Program-made: the position numbers and the translations under genes
Shown: positions 32,701-46,583 of the stretch, one piece after another
Position numbering within the stretch: the stretch's first letter is position 1
Layout of the letters: every line of letters starts with the position of its first letter
From: Anaerolineae bacterium
GTDB taxonomy: Bacteria > Chloroflexota > Anaerolineae > Promineifilales > Promineifilaceae
DNA: 64,000 bases
Assembly (NCBI GenBank): GCA_023954475.1
Contig: JAMLHW010000009.1
Location: 124,001-188,000, forward strand
Direction of reading: 5' to 3'
The notes under the pieces: model-generated
Database searches by the model: none
Told to the model about the DNA's origin: nothing
Seen by the model: the letters and a program-made list of their open reading frames with translations, nothing else

Positions 32701-32954
32701 TTGTCGTAGTTGAAGCCGAGGAGAATCAGCTTAATCGGATTTGTCCTGTGTCGTCGTCGAATAGTATTCTGAAAAACGCAGATAGAAAACAACACAAAAT
32801 AATCCCCAATATCCGGCAAACAACTCACTACCACCCGATATTCTGGCTATTTTGTACAACTTCCATATAGTTGTTTTGTGCGTTATTGGCAATAGACGAC
32901 ACCCGCCCAAGACCAGTACACTACTATTAGTCTGTGAAAAACAGAACAAATAAC

Positions 32955-33047
32955 ATGAGTACCAACCTGCTTGCCCTTATTATTGTCGTTCTTATTGGGA
33001 TTCTCATTGAGAATCCTAATACCGCATGGGCAGCTTACAAACGCTAA
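32955..33047 (+). CDS. ilv operon leader peptide (attenuation)
   Basis: A 30-codon frame, ATG 32955 to TAA 33047. Residues 5-18 read [14 protein letters not shown], with 12 of 14 being Leu, Ile or Val, the exact end products of the operon that follows. This is the classic sign of a transcription-attenuation leader, whose translation speed reports charged-tRNA levels for Leu, Ile and Val. It could also be read as a small membrane helix, but the terminator and antiterminator downstream make the regulatory role far more likely. No strong ribosome site is visible; the upstream sequence is A-rich. Confidence 0.85.
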
Positions 33048-33106
33048 GCACGACAGGAACCACTCTGAATTCTCAAGAGGCTGCCCACAAAAGGCAGCCT
33101 TTTTTG
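33027..33106 (+). promoter_or_regulatory. Transcription attenuator of the ilv-leu operon
   Basis: Terminator: AGGCTGCC (33078-33085) pairs with GGCAGCCT (33093-33100) over a 7-nt loop and is followed by TTTTT (33101-33105). Antiterminator: TGGGCAGC (33027-33034), inside leader codons 25-27, is perfectly complementary to GCTGCCCA (33080-33087), which includes the terminator's left arm, so only one can form. A ribosome stalled on the Leu/Ile/Val codons (32967-33008) leaves 33027-33034 free and the operon is read; a ribosome that reaches the stop covers it and the terminator forms. This logic matches known ilv attenuators. Confidence 0.85.
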
Positions 33107-33168: not shown

Positions 33169-34872
33169 ATGGAAAAGACAGGAGCCGAAATTCTCTGGGA
33201 ATGTCTGGTACGCGAAGGAGTCGAAGTCGTCTTTGGATATCCGGGCGGTGCCATCATGCCGGTGTATGATGCCATGCTCGACTATCCAGTGCATCATGTC
33301 CTTGTGCGCCATGAGCAGGGCGCTGCCCACATGGCTGACGGGTACGCCCGTGCCTCCGGCAAAGTGGGTGTTGCAATTGCTACGTCTGGTCCGGGCGCAA
33401 CCAATCTCGTCACCGGAATCGCCACAGCGATGATGGACTCCGTGCCCATAGTCTGTATCACAGGCCAGGTTCCAATCAGTGCAATTGGTGGGGACGCGTT
33501 TCAGGAATGCGATGTGACCGGCATCACCTTGCCCATTACCAAGCACAACTTCCTGGTCACATGCGCTGATGAAGTTGCCCAAACTGTGCGCGAAGCATTC
33601 TACATCGCCCGCAGCGGTCGTCCCGGCCCCGTCCTCATCGACTTCCCGAAAAACGCGCAGATCGCAAAAACTGAATTCGTCTATCCTGCTGAACTGAAGC
33701 TTCCAGGCTATCAACCTCCCAAACACGCGCCGTTGGTTGATCTGGAACGCGCGGTCGAACTGATCGCTGAAGCTGAACGCCCTGTGATTTTGGCTGGACA
33801 CGGTGTACTCAAATCTCATGCTTTTGACGAGCTGCGCGAGTTCGCGATGAAAACGCAAACACCGGTTGCCATGACGCTGTTGGGCTTGGGCAGTCTACCG
33901 GCATCACATCCGCTGAGTCTGGGGATGATGGGCATGCACGGGGAAGCGTATGCCAACAATGCCATCCAGAATGCCGACCTACTGCTGGCTTTTGGCATGC
34001 GCTTTGACGATCGGGTGACGGGTAATTTGCGCACATATGCGCCGCGAGCACGCAAGATTCACGTGGAGATTGACGCAAGTGAAATCCACAAGAATGTACA
34101 TGTCGATGTACCGCTGGTCGGCGATTTGAAGACCGTTCTCAGCGATTTGCTGCCGTTGGTGCAGCCGACTGAACACGAAGAGTGGATGGATCAAATTGCC
34201 GAATGGAAAGCGGACACGGAAGCACGCGACATTTTGGCGTGGCCGAATGACGGCTTGCTCTATCAATCGCACGTGATCCGCGACATCTGGAGCAATACCG
34301 GCGGCGATGCGATTATCACGACTGACGTAGGCCAACACCAGATGTGGGCGGCCCAGTATTACCATTTGGAGCAACCGTATCGCTGGCTGACCAGTGGCGG
34401 TGCGGGCACGATGGGCTATGGGATGCCGGCAGCCATTGGTGCGTGGTTTGCCACCAGGGACGAGCGCGAAATTTGGGCCATCGTCGGTGACGGTGGTTTC
34501 CAAATGACGATCACGGAGTTGGGTACAGCCATGCAGGAGCAAGCCAATATCAAGGTGTGCATTTTGAACAACAGCTATCTCGGCATGGTGCGCCAATGGC
34601 AGGAGTTTTTCTTTGACAAGCGCTATTCGGCCGTTTATATGCAGAATCCCGACTTTGTGAAGGTGGCGGAAGCGTATGGCATCGCCTCCCGGCGCGTGAC
34701 GAGGCGCGAGGATGTGGTGGGTGCGCTGGAGTTCGCGCGCAGTGTCAACGGCCCGGTTGTGCTGGAGTTTGTGGTCGAAATGGAAGAGGCTGTTTTCCCA
34801 ATGGTGCCGGCGGGTGCGGACCTGGACGACATGATTCGTCGGCCGATTCGTCGCACAGATTCGGCCGATTAA
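33169..34872 (+). CDS. ilvB: Acetolactate synthase large subunit
   Basis: 567 residues from the ATG at 33169, with AAGGAG seven bases upstream; an open frame extends back to 32971 across the attenuator but is not a real start. ThDP-dependent enzyme making acetolactate or acetohydroxybutyrate, the first common step to Val, Leu and Ile. Motifs: the cofactor-activating Glu in [21 protein letters not shown] for FAD and substrate, and the ThDP motif V-G-D-G-G-F ending with [12 protein letters not shown]. Length is normal. It starts 63 bp after the attenuator terminator. Confidence 0.97.
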
Positions 34873-34917
34873 TCGTGCAAATCGGAAAGATTATCCAAAC
34901 AATGCGGAGAGAATATC

Positions 34918-35463
34918 ATGCGTCAAACCTTAATCGCAATCGTAGAAAACAAACCGGGCGTCCTCAACCGGGTCGCCTCCCTCTTTCGCCGCCGTAACTT
35001 CAACATCGACTCGCTCAACGTCGGCCGAACTGAAGACCCGGACCTGTCACGCATGACCATCGTCGTCGACAGTCGGGATGTGCCGGCCCGTCAGGTCGAG
35101 GCCAACCTGTACAAACTGGTCAACGTCGTCGATGTGCAGGATGTAACCAACCAACAGGCAATCGTTTCCGAGCTGGCGCTGATCAAGATCGACTGTTTGC
35201 CGGAGCGTCGCTCCGAGGTGATCAGTCTGGCCAGTGTCTTTAACGCCACGGTCGCCGATGTCAGCAAGCACACGATGGTAATTCAAATTGCGGCCGAGTC
35301 GGAAAAAGTCGACAGCCTACTGAACATTCTGCGCCCGTTTGGCATTCGCGAAAGTGTGCGCACAGGCCATGTAGCCATGACGCGCGGCTCGTCTTCCGGT
35401 GTGCGCCACACACCGGGTGCAGTGGGCTATTCGAATGGGAAGAGTGCAGTTTCGGCCGATTAA
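34918..35463 (+). CDS. ilvN: Acetolactate synthase small (regulatory) subunit
   Basis: 181 residues. The N-terminal ACT domain reads V-E-N-K-P-G-V-L-N-R-V-A-S-L-F-R-R-R-N-F-N-I-D with the valine-site Asn and Gly residues, and a second ACT-like domain fills the C-terminal half. It binds IlvB and confers valine feedback inhibition. CGGAGAG precedes the ATG. The last 20 residues are Gly/Ser-rich and poorly conserved. Confidence 0.96.
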   Translation: MRQTLIAIVENKPGVLNRVASLFRRRNFNIDSLNVGRTEDPDLSRMTIVVDSRDVPARQVEANLYKLVNVVDVQDVTNQQAIVSELALIKIDCLPERRSEVISLASVFNATVADVSKHTMVIQIAAESEKVDSLLNILRPFGIRESVRTGHVAMTRGSSSGVRHTPGAVGYSNGKSAVSAD

Positions 35464-35546
35464 GAAGTCGTTGGTTTGATAGTTGACAAGTTGGAAAGCT
35501 TGATCTACTCCCACCAAACCATCCAAACCAAGCAACAGGATTCTTC

Positions 35547-36560
35547 ATGGCAACAATGTATTACGAAAACGACGTCAATCCCAAGCTGATCAAGGCGAAA
35601 AAAGTCGCCGTCATCGGCTACGGCTCGCAGGGACACGCCCACGCCCTCAACATGCGCGACAACGGCGTCAACATCATGGTCGGCTTACGCGAAAGCAGCA
35701 AGTCGCGAGCCAAAGCAGAAGCGGACGGCCTTAGAGTCGGCACAGTTGCAACAGCGACTGAATGGGCAGACGTCATCATGGTGCTTGCACCCGACACCAT
35801 GCAACCTGAAATCTATCGCGAAGAAATCGCGCCGAATCTCGCTCCCGGTGACACGCTGATGTTTGCGCACGGCTTCAACATCCACTACGAGACAATTGTG
35901 CCGCCCGGCGATGTCGATGTTAGTCTGTTAGCGCCCAAAGCGCCCGGCCATCGTGTACGCCAGGTCTTTGTTCACGGCGGCGGCACACCGTCGCTCGTTG
36001 CCGTCTATCAAGACGCCAGCGGCCAGGCGCTCGACAACGCCCTCTCGTATGCCTGGGCAACCGGCGGCACGCGCGCTGGCGTGTTGTTGACGACGTTCAA
36101 AGAGGAGACAGAGACTGACCTGTTTGGCGAGCAGGCTGTATTGTGCGGTGGCGTTTCTGAATTGGTCAAAGCCGGTTTTGAAACATTGGTCGAAGGCGGT
36201 TATCAGCCCGAACTGGCTTATTTTGAGACGATGCACGAGCTGAAGTTGATCGTCGATCTCTTCTATCAGGGTGGCCTCAACTACATGCGCTATTCCGTGT
36301 CTGATACGGCCGAATACGGCGATTACGTTTCCGGCCCGCGTGTGGTCGGCGAGCAGGCTAAATACGAGATGAAGCAAGTATTAGCCGACATTCAGAGCGG
36401 CAAATTTGCCCGTCAGTGGATTGCCGAAAACGAATCGGGTCGCGTTGAGTTCAATCGCATGCGACAAGCGGATCAGGACCACATGATCGAGCGCGTTGGA
36501 GCCAAACTACGAGCGATGATGCCGTTTGTGGAACCGGTTGAGGTCAAGCCGGGAGAATAA
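35547..36560 (+). CDS. ilvC: Ketol-acid reductoisomerase (class I)
   Basis: 337 residues, the short class I form. The Rossmann NAD(P)H motif is [11 protein letters not shown], followed by G-L-R-E-S-S-K-S with the Arg and Ser residues that favour NADPH. The catalytic region has A-P-K-A-P-G-H and D-L-F-G-E-Q plus the metal-binding Glu residues in E-T-M-H-E-L. Second enzyme of the branched-chain pathway. AGGA lies at the ribosome site. The 80-bp gap after it holds a hairpin. Confidence 0.96.
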
Positions 36561-36574
36561 GATAGATAGAGCAA

Positions 36575-36609
36575 GGAGATAGAGAACAAAGTTTATCCCC
36601 TCTATCTCC
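36575..36609 (+). repeat. 10-bp hairpin between ilvC and leuA; CTCTATCTC motif
   Basis: GGAGATAGAG (36575-36584) pairs with CTCTATCTCC (36600-36609) over a 15-nt loop. The nonamer CTCTATCTC returns twice in the leuC-leuD gap (39713-39721 and 39726-39734). There is no U-run after the hairpin. It may be a processing or stability element that sets relative expression within the operon. Confidence 0.55.
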
Positions 36610-36640
36610 ACACGCCAGCTCTATCCGGAGCAAAGCGATA

Positions 36641-38263
<1,623 letters not shown>

Positions 38264-38284
38264 GAAATCTCACCCCAAACCAAT

Positions 38285-39709
38285 ATGACCGCACCGCAGA
38301 CATTACTCGACAAAATCTGGGACTCTCACGTCGTTCTCGCCGAACCCGGCGCACCGACTGTACTCTATATCGACCTGCATCTCGTCCACGAAGTCACGTC
38401 GCCGCAAGCCTTCACAGGACTGCGGGCGAAAGGGCTGAAAGTGCGCCGCCCTGACCGCACGGTGGCGACGATGGATCACTCGACGCCAACGCGTGACATG
38501 GCTGATCCGACAGCGCGGCTGTTACTGGTCAAAGATCAGATGGCGGCAAAACAGTTGAATATGCTTGCCAAAAATTGCACTGATTTTGGCATTCGACTCT
38601 ATGACATGGCGAGCGATCACCGCGGCATTGTCCACGTCATTGGGCCGGAGCGTGGGCTGACACAGCCGGGCATGACCATCGTTTGCGGTGACTCGCACAC
38701 GGCGACACACGGTGCTTTTGGCGCGCTGGCGTTTGGCATCGGCACGTCCGAGGTCGAAATGGTCTTGGCGACACAAACTTTGCTCCAATATCGGCCGAAA
38801 ACCTTCCGCGTCAACTATGAAGGCCGCCTGCGCCACGGCGTTACATCAAAGGACATGATTCTCGCCCTGATCGCTAAAAACGGCGTCGGTGGCGGCACAG
38901 GTCACGTCTTCGAATACATGGGCGACGCTGTGCGCGGCCTGGGTATGGAAGCGCGCATGACGATGTGCAACATGTCCATCGAAGGCGGCGCACGTGCCGG
39001 CATGATCGCACCCGACGATACCACGTTCGAATACATCGCGGGACGCGACTTTGCGCCCAAAGGCGTAGCGTGGGACAAAGCCGTCGCCCAATGGCGCACA
39101 CTGCGCAGTGACGATGGCGCAACTTACGACAAATCGATCACAATTGATGTCGACAAAATGGAGCCGATGATCACCTACGGCACCAATCCCGGGATGGGCA
39201 TGCCGATCAACGGACGCGTTCCCGATCCGGCGACCATTCGCGACAGCAACCAGCGTCAATCACTCGATAAGGCACTAACTTACATGGATTTGCAGCCGGG
39301 CCAACCACTGATCGGCCAGAAAGTGGATGTCGTTTTTGTCGGTAGCTGCACCAATTCGCGCATGACCGATTTGCGCGAAGCGGCGGCCATGATCGACGGG
39401 CGCAAAGTCGCCGACAACGTACGCATGATGATTGTACCGGGTAGCGAAGATGTGCGCCGTCAAGCTGAGGCCGAAGGACTGCACGAGATTTTCCAGCGTG
39501 CCGGAGCCGAGTGGCGCAGCGCAGGCTGTTCGATGTGCATCGCCATGAACGGCGACCAGTTAGCTCCAGGACAATACGCTGTCAGCACGAGCAATCGCAA
39601 CTTTGAAGGGCGCCAGGGCAAAGGCGGACGCACGTTTCTCGCCAGTCCACTGACTGCCGTTGCCTCAGCCGTGAATGGAGTAGTCACCGATCCCAGAACA
39701 TTAGGATAG
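38285..39709 (+). CDS. leuC: 3-isopropylmalate dehydratase large subunit
   Basis: 474 residues. Aconitase-family iron-sulfur enzyme interconverting 2- and 3-isopropylmalate with LeuD. Cluster ligands are visible as V-G-S-C-T-N-S-R (first Cys) and C-S-M-C-I-A-M-N (second and third Cys); [11 protein letters not shown] is the usual substrate segment. It begins 21 bp after leuA; no clear ribosome site, suggesting coupling to leuA translation. Confidence 0.96.
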
Positions 39710-39712
39710 AGC

Positions 39713-39734
39713 CTCTATCTCAAAACTCTATCTC
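39713..39734 (+). repeat. Two direct copies of CTCTATCTC between leuC and leuD
   Basis: CTCTATCTC occurs at 39713-39721 and 39726-39734 in the short leuC-leuD gap. The same nonamer forms the right arm of the hairpin before leuA. The reverse complement GATAGAG appears at 39705. Possibly the relic of a duplicated spacer or a site for an RNA-binding protein. Confidence 0.45.
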
Positions 39735-39745
39735 TACACTCAAAC

Positions 39746-40336
39746 ATGCAACCATTTAATACACTCAACTCAACTGTGATGCCGTTGCCCATCAATGATG
39801 TGGACACGGACCAGATCATTCCCGCCGTTTATTTGAAAGTTACCAGCAAGGATGGGCTGGTCGATGGGCTGTTTTCGCGCTGGCGCTATTTGCCGGACGG
39901 CTCACCCGATCCCGATTTCGTTTTGAACAAGCCGGAATACGCTGGTGCTAAAGTGCTGTTGGCCGGTGACAATTTCGGCACCGGCTCATCCCGTGAACAT
40001 GCACCGTGGGCGTTGACTGGCTGGGGCTTTCGCGCTGTGATCAGCACGTCGTTTGCCGACATTTTCCGCAGCAATTCGCTCAAGAACGGCTTGCTGCCCA
40101 TCGCCGTTGACGAGGAAACACATAAACAGCTATTTTCGCTAACGGCTGAGGACCCAGGGGCTGCTGTTGCAATCGATCTGGCGAAGCAAACGCTGACGCT
40201 GCCCGACGGGCGTGCCGTCCCGTTTCCCATCGATGCATTCAGCAAGCAATGTATGCTCGACGGCGTTGATCAACTCGGCTACTTACTAAACCAAACAGAA
40301 GCCGTCGCTGCCTACGAAACAAACACCGGCAAGTAG
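39746..40336 (+). CDS. leuD: 3-isopropylmalate dehydratase small subunit
   Basis: 196 residues, the swivelling domain partner of LeuC. Signature motifs: N-D-V-D-T-D-Q-I-I-P-A near the N-terminus, and G-D-N-F-G-T-G-S-S-R-E-H-A-P-W-A-L that binds the substrate carboxylates. Length is that of the standard bacterial (not archaeal) type. Confidence 0.96.
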   Translation: MQPFNTLNSTVMPLPINDVDTDQIIPAVYLKVTSKDGLVDGLFSRWRYLPDGSPDPDFVLNKPEYAGAKVLLAGDNFGTGSSREHAPWALTGWGFRAVISTSFADIFRSNSLKNGLLPIAVDEETHKQLFSLTAEDPGAAVAIDLAKQTLTLPDGRAVPFPIDAFSKQCMLDGVDQLGYLLNQTEAVAAYETNTGK

Positions 40337-40383
40337 ATTGATCCGAGAAGCCGGGTATTTGCGAAAAAATCGGTTGTTTTGAA

Positions 40384-40863
40384 ATGATGACAGAAAGAGA
40401 CCGCGCTGCGCTCATAGAAGAAATGAGAAACTTTCCGGACAGGCTCGAACTGTTAGTAGCCGGGCTTTCGGCCGAACAACTCACGACAGCCGTCATCGAC
40501 GGCGAGTGGACAATAGCGCAGAACGTGCACCACGTTGTCGATTCACACATGAACAGCTACGTGCGCTGCAAACTCATGGCAACAGAAGACAATCCACCGC
40601 TCAAGCCGTACGACGAGGTCGCGTGGAGTCGGTTTGTGGATGCCAAATCGGCCGATTTGACGGCCACATTCCAACTCCTGCACGGTCTGCATGCACGCTG
40701 GGTCATCTTTTGGGAAAACCTGCCCGACGCAGCATGGTCGCGCACCGGCGATCACCTGGCGAGCGGGTCGGTCACTCTGGCCGAACAATTACAGCTATAC
40801 GTCGACCACGGCAACGCTCATCTCGACCAGATCAGGCGTACCCTGCGCGCCATGAACAGGTAA
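40384..40863 (+). CDS. DinB/YfiT-family putative metal-dependent hydrolase or thiol transferase
   Basis: 159 residues, a four-helix bundle of the DinB superfamily. The three metal-binding His residues can be placed in N-V-H-H-V-V-D-S-H and in Y-V-D-H-G-N-A-H-L-D-Q-I near the C-terminus. Members transfer low-molecular-weight thiols (bacillithiol, mycothiol) or hydrolyse small amides. Its position between leuD and cimA, with short spacing, makes it part of the operon, though nothing suggests a role in amino acid synthesis. ATG at 40384 or 40387. Confidence 0.75.
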   Translation: MMTERDRAALIEEMRNFPDRLELLVAGLSAEQLTTAVIDGEWTIAQNVHHVVDSHMNSYVRCKLMATEDNPPLKPYDEVAWSRFVDAKSADLTATFQLLHGLHARWVIFWENLPDAAWSRTGDHLASGSVTLAEQLQLYVDHGNAHLDQIRRTLRAMNR

Positions 40864-40867
40864 AAGC

Positions 40868-42427
40868 ATGTCAGACACAGTGTTCATCTATGACACAACC
40901 CTGCGCGACGGTACACAGCGCGAAGGAATCTCGCTCTCGCTTGCCGACAAGCTCAAGATTGCCCGGCGGTTAGACGAATTTGGCGTCCACTACATCGAAG
41001 GTGGCTGGCCCGGCTCCAATCCGAAGGACGTCGAATTCTTCAACGCCGTGCGCACGATGGATTTCAAGCACGCCAAAATCGCCGCTTTCGGCTCGACGCG
41101 TCGCAAAGACACGCGTCCTGAAGATGATCCCAATTTGCGTGCGTTGCTCGACGCCGGGGCACCCGTTTGCACCGTTGTCGGCAAAAGCTGGGATTTGCAC
41201 GTGCGCGATGTGTTGGTGGCTGATTTGGAAGAAAATCTGGCGATGATTGCCGAGAGTGTTGCCTACCTCAAGTCACAGGACAAAGAAGTCGTCTACGACG
41301 CCGAGCATTTCTTTGACGGATACAAAGCTAACCCGGAATACGCGCTGATGACGGTCAAAATTGCGGCCGAAAACGGCGCAGATTGCGTCGTGTTGTGCGA
41401 CACAAACGGTGGCTCGCTGCCGTGGGAGATTGCCCGTATCACCAGAGAGGTGATGGACGCGATTGATGCGCCGGTAGGCATACACACACACGATGACGGC
41501 GGCTGTGCTGTCGCCAATTCGCTGGCAGCCATTGATGTTGGCGCGATTCACGTGCAGGGAACGATCAACGGGTATGGCGAACGGGTCGGCAATGCCGATC
41601 TGTGCAGCATTATCCCGGATCTACAGCTCAAAATGAGGCGAAACTGTGTTTCGGCCGAATCCCTCACCCACCTCACCGATCTCGCCCATTACGTCGCCGA
41701 AATCGCCAATCTGCCGCACGACACACACGCGCCCTACGTCGGTGACAGCGCCTTTGCCCACAAGGGCGGCATTCACGTCGCGGCCATGCGGCGCAATGTC
41801 CTCAGTTACCAGCACATCGACCCAACCCTGATCGGCAACCAGCAGCGCACCGTTGTATCGGAGTTGTCCGGGCGCGGTAATGTGTTGGACAAGGCGGCTG
41901 AGTTCGGCGTGGATGTCGATTCGGCCGAAGCACGCGCCATTCTCGACCAGATCAAACAATTGGAAGCTGAAGGCTTTGCTTTCGAAGCCAGCGAAGCATC
42001 CATGGCGCTGCTCATGCGGCGCATGAAACCCGATTATAAGCCACCGTTTGAACTAATCGACTTCACAACCTGGATCACGCACCGCAGTGGCTTGGGCATG
42101 GTTTCAGACGCTTCGGTCAAAATCCGCATAGACGGCGAGCAAATCCACACAGCATCGGATGGCAATGGCCCGGTGAATGCACTCAGCTACGCACTGCGCA
42201 AGGCGCTGTTCACCAAATACCCGCAGTTGCAAACGGTACATTTGAGCGATTATAAAGTGCGCATTCTCGACGGCGAAAACGGCACCGGCGCGCGCGTCCG
42301 CGTCCTCATCGATTTCATCGACGGGGAGCGCCGCTGGAGTACGGTTGGCGCCAGCACAAACATCATCGAAGCCAGCTACCATGCGTTGGCGGATAGCTAC
42401 GAGTACGCATTACTAAACGGAAATTAG
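40868..42427 (+). CDS. cimA: (R)-citramalate synthase
   Basis: 519 residues. DRE-TIM enzyme condensing acetyl-CoA with pyruvate to make citramalate, which LeuCD and LeuB then turn into 2-ketobutyrate for isoleucine. It is told from LeuA by the CimA-type start Y-D-T-T-L-R-D-G-T-Q-R-E-G-I and the motif Y-I-E-G-G-W-P-G-S-N-P-K-D. H-T-H-D-D-G-G holds the metal ligands and N-G-Y-G-E-R-V-G-N the CoA loop. The C-terminal regulatory domain is present. It starts 4 bp after the DinB gene, preceded by AGG. Its presence explains isoleucine synthesis without threonine deaminase in this locus. Confidence 0.93.
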   Translation: MSDTVFIYDTTLRDGTQREGISLSLADKLKIARRLDEFGVHYIEGGWPGSNPKDVEFFNAVRTMDFKHAKIAAFGSTRRKDTRPEDDPNLRALLDAGAPVCTVVGKSWDLHVRDVLVADLEENLAMIAESVAYLKSQDKEVVYDAEHFFDGYKANPEYALMTVKIAAENGADCVVLCDTNGGSLPWEIARITREVMDAIDAPVGIHTHDDGGCAVANSLAAIDVGAIHVQGTINGYGERVGNADLCSIIPDLQLKMRRNCVSAESLTHLTDLAHYVAEIANLPHDTHAPYVGDSAFAHKGGIHVAAMRRNVLSYQHIDPTLIGNQQRTVVSELSGRGNVLDKAAEFGVDVDSAEARAILDQIKQLEAEGFAFEASEASMALLMRRMKPDYKPPFELIDFTTWITHRSGLGMVSDASVKIRIDGEQIHTASDGNGPVNALSYALRKALFTKYPQLQTVHLSDYKVRILDGENGTGARVRVLIDFIDGERRWSTVGASTNIIEASYHALADSYEYALLNGN

Positions 42428-42436
42428 AAGCGCATT

Positions 42437-43522
42437 ATGCAAGCAAACATCGTCGTATTGCCCGGTGACGGTATCGGGGTTGAAGTAGTGACCGCAGCGC
42501 TGGCTGTCCTGGAAGCAATCGGCCGAAAATTCGGTCACGAATTCGATACCGAAGAATATCTGATCGGTGGCTGCGCCATTGACGCACACGGGACAGCATT
42601 GCCGGACGAGACGAGACAGGCGTGTTTATCGGCCGATGCCGTCTTACTCGGCGCTGTAGGCGGACCCAAATGGGACGATCCCAACGCACCGGTGCGGCCT
42701 GAACAAGGGCTACTGGCGATTCGCAAAGCGATGGGACTCTACGCCAACCTGCGCCCAGTCAAACTCCATCCCGACCTCATCGACGCATCCCCGCTGCGAC
42801 CGGAGCGGCTGGCCGGCGTCGATCTGCTCGTCATCCGCGAGTTGACCGGCGGTCTCTACTTCGGTGAAGGCGGACGCTGGGTTGAAAACGGCGAAGAATG
42901 GGGCAAAAATACGATGATCTACAGCGCCGGCGAGATTCGTCGTATTGCCAAACTGGCTTTCGACGCCGCTCGTGGTCGTCGTAAGAAGCTGGCCTCCATC
43001 GACAAAGCCAACGTACTCGATGTCATGCGACTGTGGCGCAAGACGGTTGCGGAAGTCGCCGAGGATTATCCCGATGTTGAACTCGAAAACGTCCTCGTCG
43101 ACGCTGCCACGATGCATTTGCTCAGCCGTCCGGCGTCATTTGATGTCATGGTGGCAGGCAACATGTTCGGCGACATCATCACCGACGAAGCATCCATGCT
43201 GTCCGGATCGATGGGGAATTTGCCATCGGCGTCACTTGGTCAACATCTCAATCGGCACGGCAAACCACAAGGCTTGTACGAACCGATACATGGCTCTGCA
43301 CCTGACATTGCCGGACGTGGCATTGCCAATCCGATCGGCACAATTTTATCGCTGGCGCTGCTGCTGAGACATTCCCTGGGGCTTGAACTTGAAGCGACAG
43401 CAATCGAAAACGCGGTTGACCAGGCTCTGAGTGATGGTGTTCGCACGGCCGATCTGGCAAGCGACGGCAAAAAATCAGTTAACACGCAACAAATGACCGC
43501 AGCAATTTTAGTCCATATTTGA
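42437..43522 (+). CDS. leuB: 3-isopropylmalate dehydrogenase
   Basis: 361 residues. Beta-decarboxylating dehydrogenase; converts 3-isopropylmalate, and probably citramalate-derived methylmalate, using NAD. Motifs: [10 protein letters not shown], the Arg-rich substrate loop L-R-P-V-K and [20 protein letters not shown] for NAD, and [11 protein letters not shown]. It starts 9 bp after cimA. Its stop overlaps a potential early start of the next gene by 4 bp. Confidence 0.95.
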
Positions 43523-43548
43523 ACGGTGTAGAATCAGAGGGACACGCA

Positions 43549-44322
43549 ATGACAACTAATTACGTATGGTTCGATGGTGAATTTGTCGCGCTGGCAACGG
43601 CGCGGGCTTACTTCAAGGATAACCCTCGGTATCAGTCACCGAGCATCGTTGAAGGGTTGCGCTGCTACGCAACGGAACGGGGTGCGGCTGTATTTCGGTT
43701 ACAAGATCATGTGGCGCACTTCGTTTCTCGAGTTGAAGAGATGGGCTTCACGTTGGATGCGTATCGTGAATTGAGCCTGGCAAGTGCTGTACTGCGTACC
43801 ATTATGGTCAACAATCTGTACGAATCCCATGTGCGGTTGCAGTTGTTTATGGAGCTGCCGGACCAGTCGCAACCTGCCGGCAATATTCGGCCGAAAATTC
43901 TGATCACGGCCACAGCCATCGACAGCGACCCGCTCACCTTGTCGGTAGACGGCTATGAAGCCGACTTCACACAACCAACGCGCTTTGTCGTGTCGGACAA
44001 CATTGTGTTTACGGAACCGGCGGTCGATTCCTGTGACATGGTTGCACGCGAAACGGTAATCGAATTCATTGCGAAAACAGGATACAAACTCGTCGAAACA
44101 CCCTTTTCGGCCGAATTACTGCACGCATGTGATGAGGCTTTTCTCTGCTCGACACAGGATGAAATCAAGCGCATTGACACGGTAGCCGGCATCGCCATTA
44201 TCGGCCCGGAAACCCATCGTATTACCAATGCTTTGCAGGAACAATACCGGGCAACAGCACGTGGCGAAACGCAACGGTCATTGGGCTGGGTCAATTATGT
44301 CACAATGGAGCCATTATTTTAG
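43549..44322 (+). CDS. Class IV (branched-chain type) aminotransferase lacking the PLP-lysine segment
   Basis: 257 residues from the ATG at 43549; an in-frame start at 43519 overlaps leuB. N- and C-terminal parts follow E. coli IlvE closely: Y-V-W-F-D-G-E-F-V, I-V-E-G-L-R-C-Y, V-F-R-L-Q-D-H at the start, then V-I-E-F-I-A-K-T-G-Y, A-C-D-E-A-F-L-C-S-T and G-W-V-N-Y at the end. Between them about 45 residues are missing: the sequence passes from F-T-Q-P-T-R straight to F-V-V-S-D-N, skipping the region that in IlvE holds the Schiff-base lysine (A-K-A-G-G-N-Y) and the following E-G-x-G-E-N. No other lysine stands in that context. By position it should be ilvE, but it appears unable to form the internal aldimine. 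Confidence 0.8.
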   Translation: MTTNYVWFDGEFVALATARAYFKDNPRYQSPSIVEGLRCYATERGAAVFRLQDHVAHFVSRVEEMGFTLDAYRELSLASAVLRTIMVNNLYESHVRLQLFMELPDQSQPAGNIRPKILITATAIDSDPLTLSVDGYEADFTQPTRFVVSDNIVFTEPAVDSCDMVARETVIEFIAKTGYKLVETPFSAELLHACDEAFLCSTQDEIKRIDTVAGIAIIGPETHRITNALQEQYRATARGETQRSLGWVNYVTMEPLF

Positions 44323-44511: not shown

Positions 44512-45639
44512 ATGGCCCGCCGAGCAGTTTTTCCGTTTACCGCCATCGTCGGTCAAGACAAAATGAAACGCGCTCTGATTCTCAACGCGGTCAGCCCTCG
44601 CATCGGCGGGGTGCTGTTGCGTGGGGAGCGTGGTACAGCCAAGTCAACGGCTGCCCGTGCGCTGGCAGCGCTACTACCCGACATCGAAATTATCAAGGGC
44701 AGCCGCTTTAACAGTGATCCCAATCGGCCGAATCAGTGGAGCGATGAATGTGTCACCAAATTCAGCGACGGCAACTACGAAGTGATGATCCGACGGACCC
44801 CGTTCGTCGACCTGCCCGTCAGCGCCACCGAAGACCGGGTTGTCGGCACCCTTGACATCGAAAAAGCAATTCAATCCGGAGAAAAACACTTTGAACCCGG
44901 TGTACTGGCTTCAGCCAATCGCGGCATCCTGTACGTCGACGAAGTCAACTTACTCGATGACCATGTCGTCGATCTGCTCCTGGACTCTGCCGCCATGGGC
45001 ATCAACATTGTAGAACGCGAAGGCATCAGCTTCACCCACCCTGCCAAGTTTGTCTTGATCGGGAGCATGAATCCTGAAGAAGGGGATTTGAGACCCCAGC
45101 TTCTCGACCGGTTCGCTTTTTCCGTCAACATCGGCGGTCTGCTCGACACACGTCAGCGCGTCGAAATCATGGATCGCCGTCTCGGCTTTGAAATTGATCC
45201 CGACGGTTTCTGCGAAGAGTGGCAAGATCGCGAAGCTGAAATGTCAGAACGCATCGCCAAAGCCCGCGACATTGTCAACGATGTGCATCATACGCGGCGT
45301 GACCTACTCAAAATCGCCACATTGACCAGCCATTTCAAAGTCGACGGGCATCGCGGTGACCTCGTCATTTTACGTGGTGCTCAGGCTCATGCCGCCTTTC
45401 AGGGTCGCACACACATCACCGACGAAGATATCGCGCTTGCTGCCGAATTAGCCCTGCCCCATCGCATCAAGGGACGCCTGTTTGAAGATACCAGCGTGTC
45501 GGCGCAGCAATTGCAGGATTCTCTGCAACAGATCAGCGACAGCATGGAAAGCGGTGATGTCGAGCAGATCCAACAAGACGACCAGGAAACGGTCCCCAGT
45601 GACGTAAAAAAAAAGCCCTGGACGTGGACTCAGAAGTAG
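44512..45639 (+). CDS. chlI: Chelatase AAA+ ATPase subunit (ChlI-like; zero-frame product)
   Basis: 375 residues when read in the zero frame. AAA+ ATPase of the magnesium/cobalt chelatase family: Walker A G-E-R-G-T-A-K-S-T (38-46), Walker B I-L-Y-V-D-E-V-N-L-L (139-148), sensor 1 G-S-M-N-P-E-E-G, then D-R-F-A-F-S-V. The last 40 residues are acidic and end right after an A9 run, where the VWA part begins in the minus-one frame. With no chlorophyll genes in view, the likely partner is the CobN cobaltochelatase subunit of B12 synthesis. No cobN lies in the window. Confidence 0.93.
   Translation: MARRAVFPFTAIVGQDKMKRALILNAVSPRIGGVLLRGERGTAKSTAARALAALLPDIEIIKGSRFNSDPNRPNQWSDECVTKFSDGNYEVMIRRTPFVDLPVSATEDRVVGTLDIEKAIQSGEKHFEPGVLASANRGILYVDEVNLLDDHVVDLLLDSAAMGINIVEREGISFTHPAKFVLIGSMNPEEGDLRPQLLDRFAFSVNIGGLLDTRQRVEIMDRRLGFEIDPDGFCEEWQDREAEMSERIAKARDIVNDVHHTRRDLLKIATLTSHFKVDGHRGDLVILRGAQAHAAFQGRTHITDEDIALAAELALPHRIKGRLFEDTSVSAQQLQDSLQQISDSMESGDVEQIQQDDQETVPSDVKKKPWTWTQK
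45606..45615 (+). other. Candidate programmed -1 frameshift site (A9 run, A_AAA_AAG)
   Basis: Nine A residues (45606-45614) followed by G contain the dnaX-type slippery heptamer A_AAA_AAG in the zero frame. A -1 slip joins the acidic tail of ChlI to the VWA frame, which is closed by a TGA at 45600-45602 just before the run. The zero frame stops at 45637. No ribosome site precedes the first GTG (45624) of the second frame. A weak hairpin of seven pairs (near 45615-45650) could assist; a clear upstream SD-like stimulator is not seen. Confidence 0.7.
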
Positions 45640-46583
45640 AGGACGGGGCTGACGTTGCCGATACTGAAGCAGGCGCACAATCCGTTCCGACCACACCACA
45701 GCAAGGCAAATGGTGGGAAGGCGGTCAGAAAAAACAATCACAGCAGGAATTTGACGCCCGTCGTCTTGACACACCGCTCGACCGGTTGATGCGCAAGACG
45801 TCTGGACGTCGCTCTGTTACCAAGACCGACCGCAAGCGTGGACGCTATATTCAAGCCAAATTACCCAAGCCGGATCGCAAAGTAAGAGACCTCGCTTTTG
45901 ATGCCACCATTCGCGCTGCCGCTCCCTACCAGAGAGAACGCGATCGTTCACAAATGGCGCTGGCGCTGCGCAGGAGCGATTTGCGCGAAAAAGTACGCGT
46001 GCGTCGTTCGGCCAATCTGATTTTGTTCGCTGTCGATGCCAGTTGGAGCATGGCGGTGTCTGAGCGCATGGAAGCAACAAAAGGGGCGATCATGTCGCTG
46101 CTGACTGATGCTTACCAGCGCCGCGATCGTGTGGGGCTGATCGTCTTTCACAAAAACGATGCCCACCTTGTCCTGCCACCGACCAACTCTGTTCAACTTG
46201 CTAAAGATGCGCTGGAAGACATCGCTGTAGGCGGTAAAACACCGCTATCGGCCGGTTTGATGATGGCGTTGGAAGTGTTCCGCAAGGAAGCATACACACA
46301 TCCGGATGTGATGCCAATGTTGATCTTGCTGACGGACGGTGCCGGCAACGTGAGCTTGGGCGATTTGCCACCGCAACCGGAAGCGCACCGCATTGCCGGC
46401 ATGATCAAAGAGATGGGCGTGCGTTCTATTGTCATCAATATGGAACATCCGGCATTTGATCAGGGGCTAGCCCAATTGCTGGCTGACAAGCTGGACGGAC
46501 CATGTCATACGCTGGAGGATTTGCGCGCTGAAACGCTGTATCAAACTGTGGTCAGCGAACTAGACCACAAACCACGCCGCTAA
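45624..46583 (+). CDS. chlD: Chelatase VWA subunit (ChlD-like), probably made as a ChlI-ChlD fusion by frameshift
   Basis: The second frame gives 319 residues from the GTG at 45624, though translation probably enters by the -1 shift at 45606-45614 to give one protein of about 690 residues with AAA+, acidic linker and VWA parts, the normal plan of ChlD. The linker stays acidic on both sides of the junction. The VWA domain (about 125-310) has the MIDAS set F-A-V-D-A-S-W-S-M, a Thr in G-K-T-P-L-S-A-G-L, and L-L-T-D-G-A-G-N. A -1 frameshift in chlD-type genes, yielding both small and medium subunits, has been described for cobalamin producers. Confidence 0.85.
   Translation: MDSEVEDGADVADTEAGAQSVPTTPQQGKWWEGGQKKQSQQEFDARRLDTPLDRLMRKTSGRRSVTKTDRKRGRYIQAKLPKPDRKVRDLAFDATIRAAAPYQRERDRSQMALALRRSDLREKVRVRRSANLILFAVDASWSMAVSERMEATKGAIMSLLTDAYQRRDRVGLIVFHKNDAHLVLPPTNSVQLAKDALEDIAVGGKTPLSAGLMMALEVFRKEAYTHPDVMPMLILLTDGAGNVSLGDLPPQPEAHRIAGMIKEMGVRSIVINMEHPAFDQGLAQLLADKLDGPCHTLEDLRAETLYQTVVSELDHKPRR

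Follow-up and report, generated by a model that had tools for sequence, protein, structure and literature searches.

Introduction

The attenuators of the E. coli ilvGMEDA and ilvBN operons have leader peptides rich in Ile, Val and Leu. In attenuators of the leader-peptide kind, the decision is usually a kinetic one. T-boxes usually act by transcription termination.

The E. coli attenuator work is cited in PMC10272879. In Corynebacterium, the published model of the ilvBNC leader has three hairpins (PMC10272879, PMC11857589). Hairpin 1 is described there as an anti-antiterminator, the peptide has 15 residues, and a change of the leader start codon brings expression down by 80% (PMC11857589). Frames rich in branched-chain codons also lie upstream of ilvB in the ilvB-OMG motif of various phyla and in the Leptospira ilvB motif (PMC10272879). 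At the time of a 2010 survey, which added Firmicutes, leader-peptide systems were known only in Proteobacteria and Actinobacteria (PMC2965389); Corynebacterium ilvB-II, ilvB-OMG in various phyla and Leptospira are later additions (PMC10272879). T-boxes are known in Chloroflexi (PMC2494555, PMC3766115). A literature search for leader-peptide attenuation in Chloroflexi, Chloroflexota or Chloroflexus, the scope of which did not include another 2010 survey, that of Lopatovskaya and colleagues, found none.

The window, which is the whole 64 kb stretch of DNA that was analysed, contains an ilv-leu operon preceded by a leader of this general type. Read from its sequence and from fold models, the operon is very probably controlled by ribosome-mediated transcription attenuation.

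The leader region and its operon

The leader region has the following features, all on the plus strand:

32893..32922, +, candidate promoter inferred from sequence: TAGACG (32893-32898), 18-nt spacer, TACACT (32917-32922)
32955..33048, +, leader peptide ORF of 30 codons, ATG at 32955, TAA stop at 33046-33048
32967..33008, +, control codons 5-18, of which 12/14 are Leu, Ile or Val by translation of the ORF
32993..33021, +, hairpin 1, a perfect 13-bp stem with a 3-nt loop within the leader ORF, found by folding; candidate pause hairpin
33027..33036, +, antiterminator 5' arm, core TGGGCAGC at 33027-33034, found by pairing and covariation
33075..33106, +, intrinsic terminator, stem 33075-33103 and T-run to 33105, found by fold and terminator scan
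33078..33087, +, shared strand: antiterminator 3' arm (core GCTGCCCA, 33080-33087) and terminator 5' arm

The candidate promoter matches the consensus at 8 of 12 positions and lies under the threshold of the promoter scan. Several relatives in the family have similar TAGACGA ... TACACT/TATACT boxes at the equivalent place, and other members of the class have near-consensus TTGACA/TATAAT boxes there. Judged from these sequences, transcription is expected to start at about 32930. No Shine-Dalgarno sequence is seen upstream of the leader ATG of the window. Most leader ORFs, in the window and in relatives, share this feature; the ilvB gene of the window has AAGGAG before 33169.

The leader is followed by ten co-directional genes with short gaps, spanning 33169-44322, which were assigned by NCBIfam matches:

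33169..34872, +, ilvB, acetolactate synthase large subunit (TIGR00118, 762 bits)
34918..35463, +, ilvN, acetolactate synthase small subunit (TIGR00119)
35547..36560, +, ilvC, ketol-acid reductoisomerase (TIGR00465)
36641..38263, +, leuA, 2-isopropylmalate synthase (TIGR00973)
38285..39709, +, leuC, isopropylmalate dehydratase large subunit (TIGR00170)
39746..40336, +, leuD, isopropylmalate dehydratase small subunit (TIGR00171)
40384..40863, +, DinB/YfiT-like protein, operon passenger (NF009807, 139.5 bits, cut-off of 160 not reached)
40868..42427, +, cimA, citramalate synthase (TIGR00977)
42437..43522, +, leuB, 3-isopropylmalate dehydrogenase (TIGR00169)
43519..44322, +, ilvE-like branched-chain aminotransferase of class IV, the last gene (TIGR01122, E 2.8e-31, below cut-off)

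The products of the operon fit the Leu, Ile and Val codons of the leader; ilvD is absent from it. The gene between leuD and cimA (40384-40863) belongs to the DinB/YfiT-like, bacillithiol-transferase family. The next genes, which resemble cobaltochelatase or Mg-chelatase, begin at 44512 after a gap of 189 nt that holds a promoter-like TATAAT, and they are probably separate from the ilv-leu operon. At 44512-46583 the chelatase-like protein is split into two adjacent ORFs, corresponding to its N-terminal and C-terminal halves.

The terminator stem has 11 pairs, six of them GC, and a loop of 7. The core of the antiterminator arm, TGGGCAGC, forms a perfect 8-bp pairing with GCTGCCCA, extended to 10 pairs when wobble pairs are included. 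Since GCTGCCCA overlaps the 5' strand and the loop of the terminator, antiterminator and terminator are mutually exclusive. Most of these elements had been claimed in an earlier sequence-only reading of the same DNA. Its leader of 30 codons with 12/14 Leu, Ile or Val at residues 5-18 agrees exactly in coordinates and translation, its strong terminator at 33078-33106 is found at 33075-33106, and its 8-bp antiterminator excluding the terminator is a perfect pairing on a strand that the two structures share. The operon of ten genes that it described is likewise borne out by the family matches, with the seventh gene now seen to be DinB/YfiT-like and to have no known role in the pathway.

Hairpin 1 is absent from that description. 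It adjoins the antiterminator arm and does not overlap it, and the segment 32990-33090 folds into a structure far more stable than its shuffles (z -4.8). Most relatives likewise form a hairpin where the control codons end, immediately 5' of the arm, for example CCTTATT...AATAAGG. Among 66 leaders, compared with a null in which the peptide is kept and synonymous codons are drawn from the pooled leaders, the mean z for this hairpin is -0.98, and 17-18 of the 66 are individually significant. These results give modest support to selection on the RNA structure itself. By analogy with known leaders, hairpin 1 likely pauses the polymerase. Upstream pairing with the arm, of the protector type, is marginal (z 2.0 versus swaps), and the compared leaders show no clear conservation of an upstream segment that would pair with the arm as in the classical protector 1:2 pairing.

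The host genome has a single copy of the element. A detector that requires all three parts, namely a short ORF rich in L/I/V, a terminator close behind it and an antiterminator pairing, gives one match on both strands of the window, the ilvB leader. On 60 dinucleotide-shuffled strands it gives 0 matches, and not even a short ORF with L/I/V at 9 of 10 residues is present in them.

Conservation of the arrangement

Relatives were located by means of IlvB, and the DNA upstream was then read. Among 52 genomes of the family, 39 have an IlvB match, and the arrangement is present before the first ilv gene in all 39; the same detector finds it in 0/39 of the reverse complements of these upstream regions. 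In five of the 39 loci (L043-L047) ilvD is directly before ilvB, and the leader sits before ilvD. In the rest of the class, where 60 genomes were read, the leader precedes ilvB in 27 (20, and 7 more with a relaxed terminator rule). In the genomes with ilvD first that were followed up, an L/I/V leader is found before ilvD in 19/19, a count that leaves out nine further genomes, among the 60 read, that have ilvD in front. Overall, the wider class has the leader before ilvB, or before ilvD where that gene is first, in 46 of the 51 genomes tested; it was not found in the remaining five (L053, L060, L061, L066 and L088). The strict rule finds the leader before ilvB in 18/60 genomes of the wider class and before ilvD in 14/20, with 0 in reverse complements. 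When the detector is applied to 2,400-nt upstream stretches from distant phyla, some matches are probably spurious, and the claims made here are confined to Chloroflexota.

The family ilvB genes form two groups, one 74-100% identical to that of the window (L002-L011) and the other 55-59% identical (L012-L040). The leader is of one kind in both groups, with arm motifs of the TGGGCAGC or TGGACGG type in one case and of the GTTGGG type in the other. The comparison suggests that, when the ilvB gene was replaced in the family, the attenuator was either retained or built anew. Four loci (L238, L243, L076 and L103) have a terminator-like hairpin with little or no T-run, and may therefore terminate transcription differently or be controlled in another way.

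Covariation of the two helices

The antiterminator arm pairs much better with its own shared strand than with swapped ones. The z score is 13.5 with 66 leaders and 12.8 when the test is limited to 51 unique terminator strands, and 0 of 20,000 permutations reach the observed value; the permutations ignore phylogeny, and the strands of the 51-strand test are all different. Tabulated by position, the arm, the shared strand and the terminator partner change jointly. At the fourth stem pair from the loop, the three positions read U-G-C, C-G-C, A-U-A and G-C-G in different leaders, a triple covariation in which the arm position hinges on the best-pairing register and the terminator partner is independent of that register.

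Counted from the leader start, the arm falls in each of the three reading frames. In the window it reads TGG GCA GC, encoding Trp-Ala-Ala, and in many relatives GTT GGG TAA, encoding Val-Gly-stop. Since its frame varies in this way, it is the RNA pairing rather than the peptide that is conserved, and the end of the leader peptide is therefore a by-product of the RNA requirement. This bears on a different reading of the ORF, as the gene for a small hydrophobic membrane peptide that has a function of its own, followed by a terminator that is ordinary operon punctuation. The peptide is indeed hydrophobic, as would be any peptide so rich in L/I/V, but its sequence is barely conserved beyond that richness while the arm is kept in three frames, and covariation links the terminator strand to an arm that lies within the ORF. 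We consider a membrane peptide extremely improbable. A comparison of the 30-residue peptide with a plasmid collection gave no match.

These data also bear on the evidence that the sequence-only reading had named as able to refute it, a lack of conservation of the leader or of the alternative pairings. All 39 family relatives conserve the arrangement, and both helices covary. Its remark that the locus is a clear example in this type of genome stands, and the class-wide spread of the attenuator goes beyond what it covered.

The absence of a T-box at the leader

A second alternative is that a T-box leader controls the operon and that the short ORF is incidental. The host genome does use T-boxes. 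Six matches are present, three of them over the Rfam cut-off; with neighbours judged by eye, these three precede an alanyl-tRNA-editing-like gene (L189), a serS-like gene (L190) and a trpB-like gene (L191), and those below the cut-off precede leuS-like (L192), thrS-like (L193) and weakly asd-like (L194) genes. Outside the class, moreover, a T-box is found at ilvB in 5 of the 20 upstream regions scanned in the phylum (L204, L207, L217, L218 and L227). However, the T-box covariance model (RF00230) has no match in the window or in the 48 class loci scanned, the likely transcription start and the terminator are about 175 nt apart, a distance mostly filled by the ORF, and the ORF and its L/I/V codons are conserved. 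A T-box at the ilv-leu leader is refuted at the sensitivity used, and we regard control by one as practically inconceivable. Since the T-boxes of the host lie at other genes (L189-L194), two sensors of tRNA charging exist side by side in this organism.

No Rfam family, T-box, Leu leader or other, matches the window leader over its cut-off. The amino-acid leader families, such as the Leu leader RF00512, do not reach the gathering score in the window or in the 48 class loci; in one of these scans the best Leu_leader match scored 22.5 bits, where 50 are needed, and lay on the opposite strand.

Leaders or candidate leaders rich in L/I/V were also seen outside the class. One locus, L228, has a leader MVAHFVSLILLVLVLLLSLIGGWSKRV with L/I/V at 10/10 residues, together with terminator and antiterminator; it lies 418-502 nt before ilvB. 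Three relatives with large genomes (L222, L224 and L234) have, before ilvB, long L/I/V-rich frames that begin at codons other than ATG and have terminators behind them, which are candidate leaders or chance occurrences.

Proposed mechanism

In the proposed attenuation mechanism, transcription would start at about 32930 and a ribosome would begin to translate the leader peptide, with hairpin 1 probably pausing the polymerase and keeping the two machines in step. When charged Leu, Ile or Val tRNA is scarce, the ribosome would stall within codons 5-18 and leave the arm at 33027-33034 free. The free arm would pair with the newly made 33080-33087 before the 3' strand of the terminator exists, allowing read-through into the ten genes. 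With an ample supply of all three charged tRNAs, the ribosome would reach the stop codon and cover about 33028-33059, hiding the arm, so that the terminator could form and the RNA would end at about 175 nt.

The geometry of the window fits this scheme. The fold model assumes a ribosome footprint with its leading edge 17 nt away from the codon in the P-site, counted from the first base of that codon. With codons 1-19 in the P-site, the arm is predicted to be exposed, and the antiterminator has a modelled probability of 0.87-0.96 in an RNA that ends before the 3' strand of the terminator. Past codon 20 the modelled antiterminator is unable to form, and with the stop codon in the A-site the assumed footprint covers about 33028-33059. 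The sequence-only reading had placed the arm so that it is free on stalling and hidden at the stop, and the model agrees, the arm being free to codon 19 and covered at the stop. Its broader claim of ribosome-mediated attenuation thus gains support from the window geometry, the 39/39 relatives and the covarying helices. In some members of the class the arm sits too far ahead of the stop for a terminating ribosome to cover it completely; it is at least half covered in 48 of 65 leaders.

Equilibrium folds of the full leader come out on the side of the terminator in all states that were modelled, and the switch would therefore have to be kinetic. Without a ribosome, the model has both hairpin 1 (0.98) and the antiterminator (0.96) forming early. 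Since the antiterminator would form early in this way and no clear conserved upstream partner competes for the arm, the prediction is read-through when the leader is not translated.

An early antiterminator could in principle serve another sensor, and a protein or small molecule, rather than the ribosome, might set it as in a riboswitch, with the ORF merely keeping the region translated. The predicted ribosome-free fold (0.96) would allow this, but the compared leaders have no conserved unpaired sequence resembling a ligand core between hairpin 1 and the terminator, and the codon bias fits all three end products. Such a sensor appears very unlikely, and ribosome-mediated attenuation remains the preferred reading. 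A more general proposal is that the attenuators of the whole class work without a protector hairpin, such that an untranslated leader reads through, only completion of the peptide terminates transcription, and the system stands at this gene in place of the T-boxes of other lineages in the phylum. We put this forward tentatively, leaning slightly against it.

Comparison with known systems

Like the E. coli ilvGMEDA and ilvBN attenuators, the window has end-product codons in its leader, a strand common to antiterminator and terminator, and a branched-chain operon downstream. Unlike them, its hairpin 1 does not overlap the arm, there is no clearly conserved protector, and the untranslated leader is predicted to read through.

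In Corynebacterium ilvBNC and ilvB-II, as in the window, an L/I/V leader peptide is encoded ahead of ilvB and is accompanied by a terminator and an antiterminator (PMC10272879, PMC11857589). The window leader differs in having 30 codons and a hairpin 1 that lies beside the arm; the sequence relation was compared through Rfam only. The predicted read-through of an untranslated Chloroflexota leader is also unlike the result of the start-codon change in Corynebacterium. The ilvB-OMG and Leptospira motifs, which were compared by description only, resemble the Chloroflexota leaders in having a frame rich in branched-chain codons before ilvB, and the Chloroflexota leaders have no Rfam match.

The ilvB T-boxes of other Chloroflexota classes likewise sense charged tRNA pools before the same gene, but with a different sensor, the leader of the window being read by the ribosome. 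Within one phylum, ilvB thus has a T-box in certain lineages, while elsewhere its leader is read by the ribosome, so that sensor switching can be tested by comparison. The set of leaders could also serve as the seed of an additional Rfam entry.

Most descriptions of leader-peptide attenuation come from Proteobacteria and Actinobacteria, and a few from Firmicutes, Leptospira and metagenomes; the present leaders extend it to a whole class of Chloroflexota. The mechanism is of a known kind; its class-wide use in Chloroflexota is, as far as the literature was searched, new, and it may operate without the classical protector hairpin.
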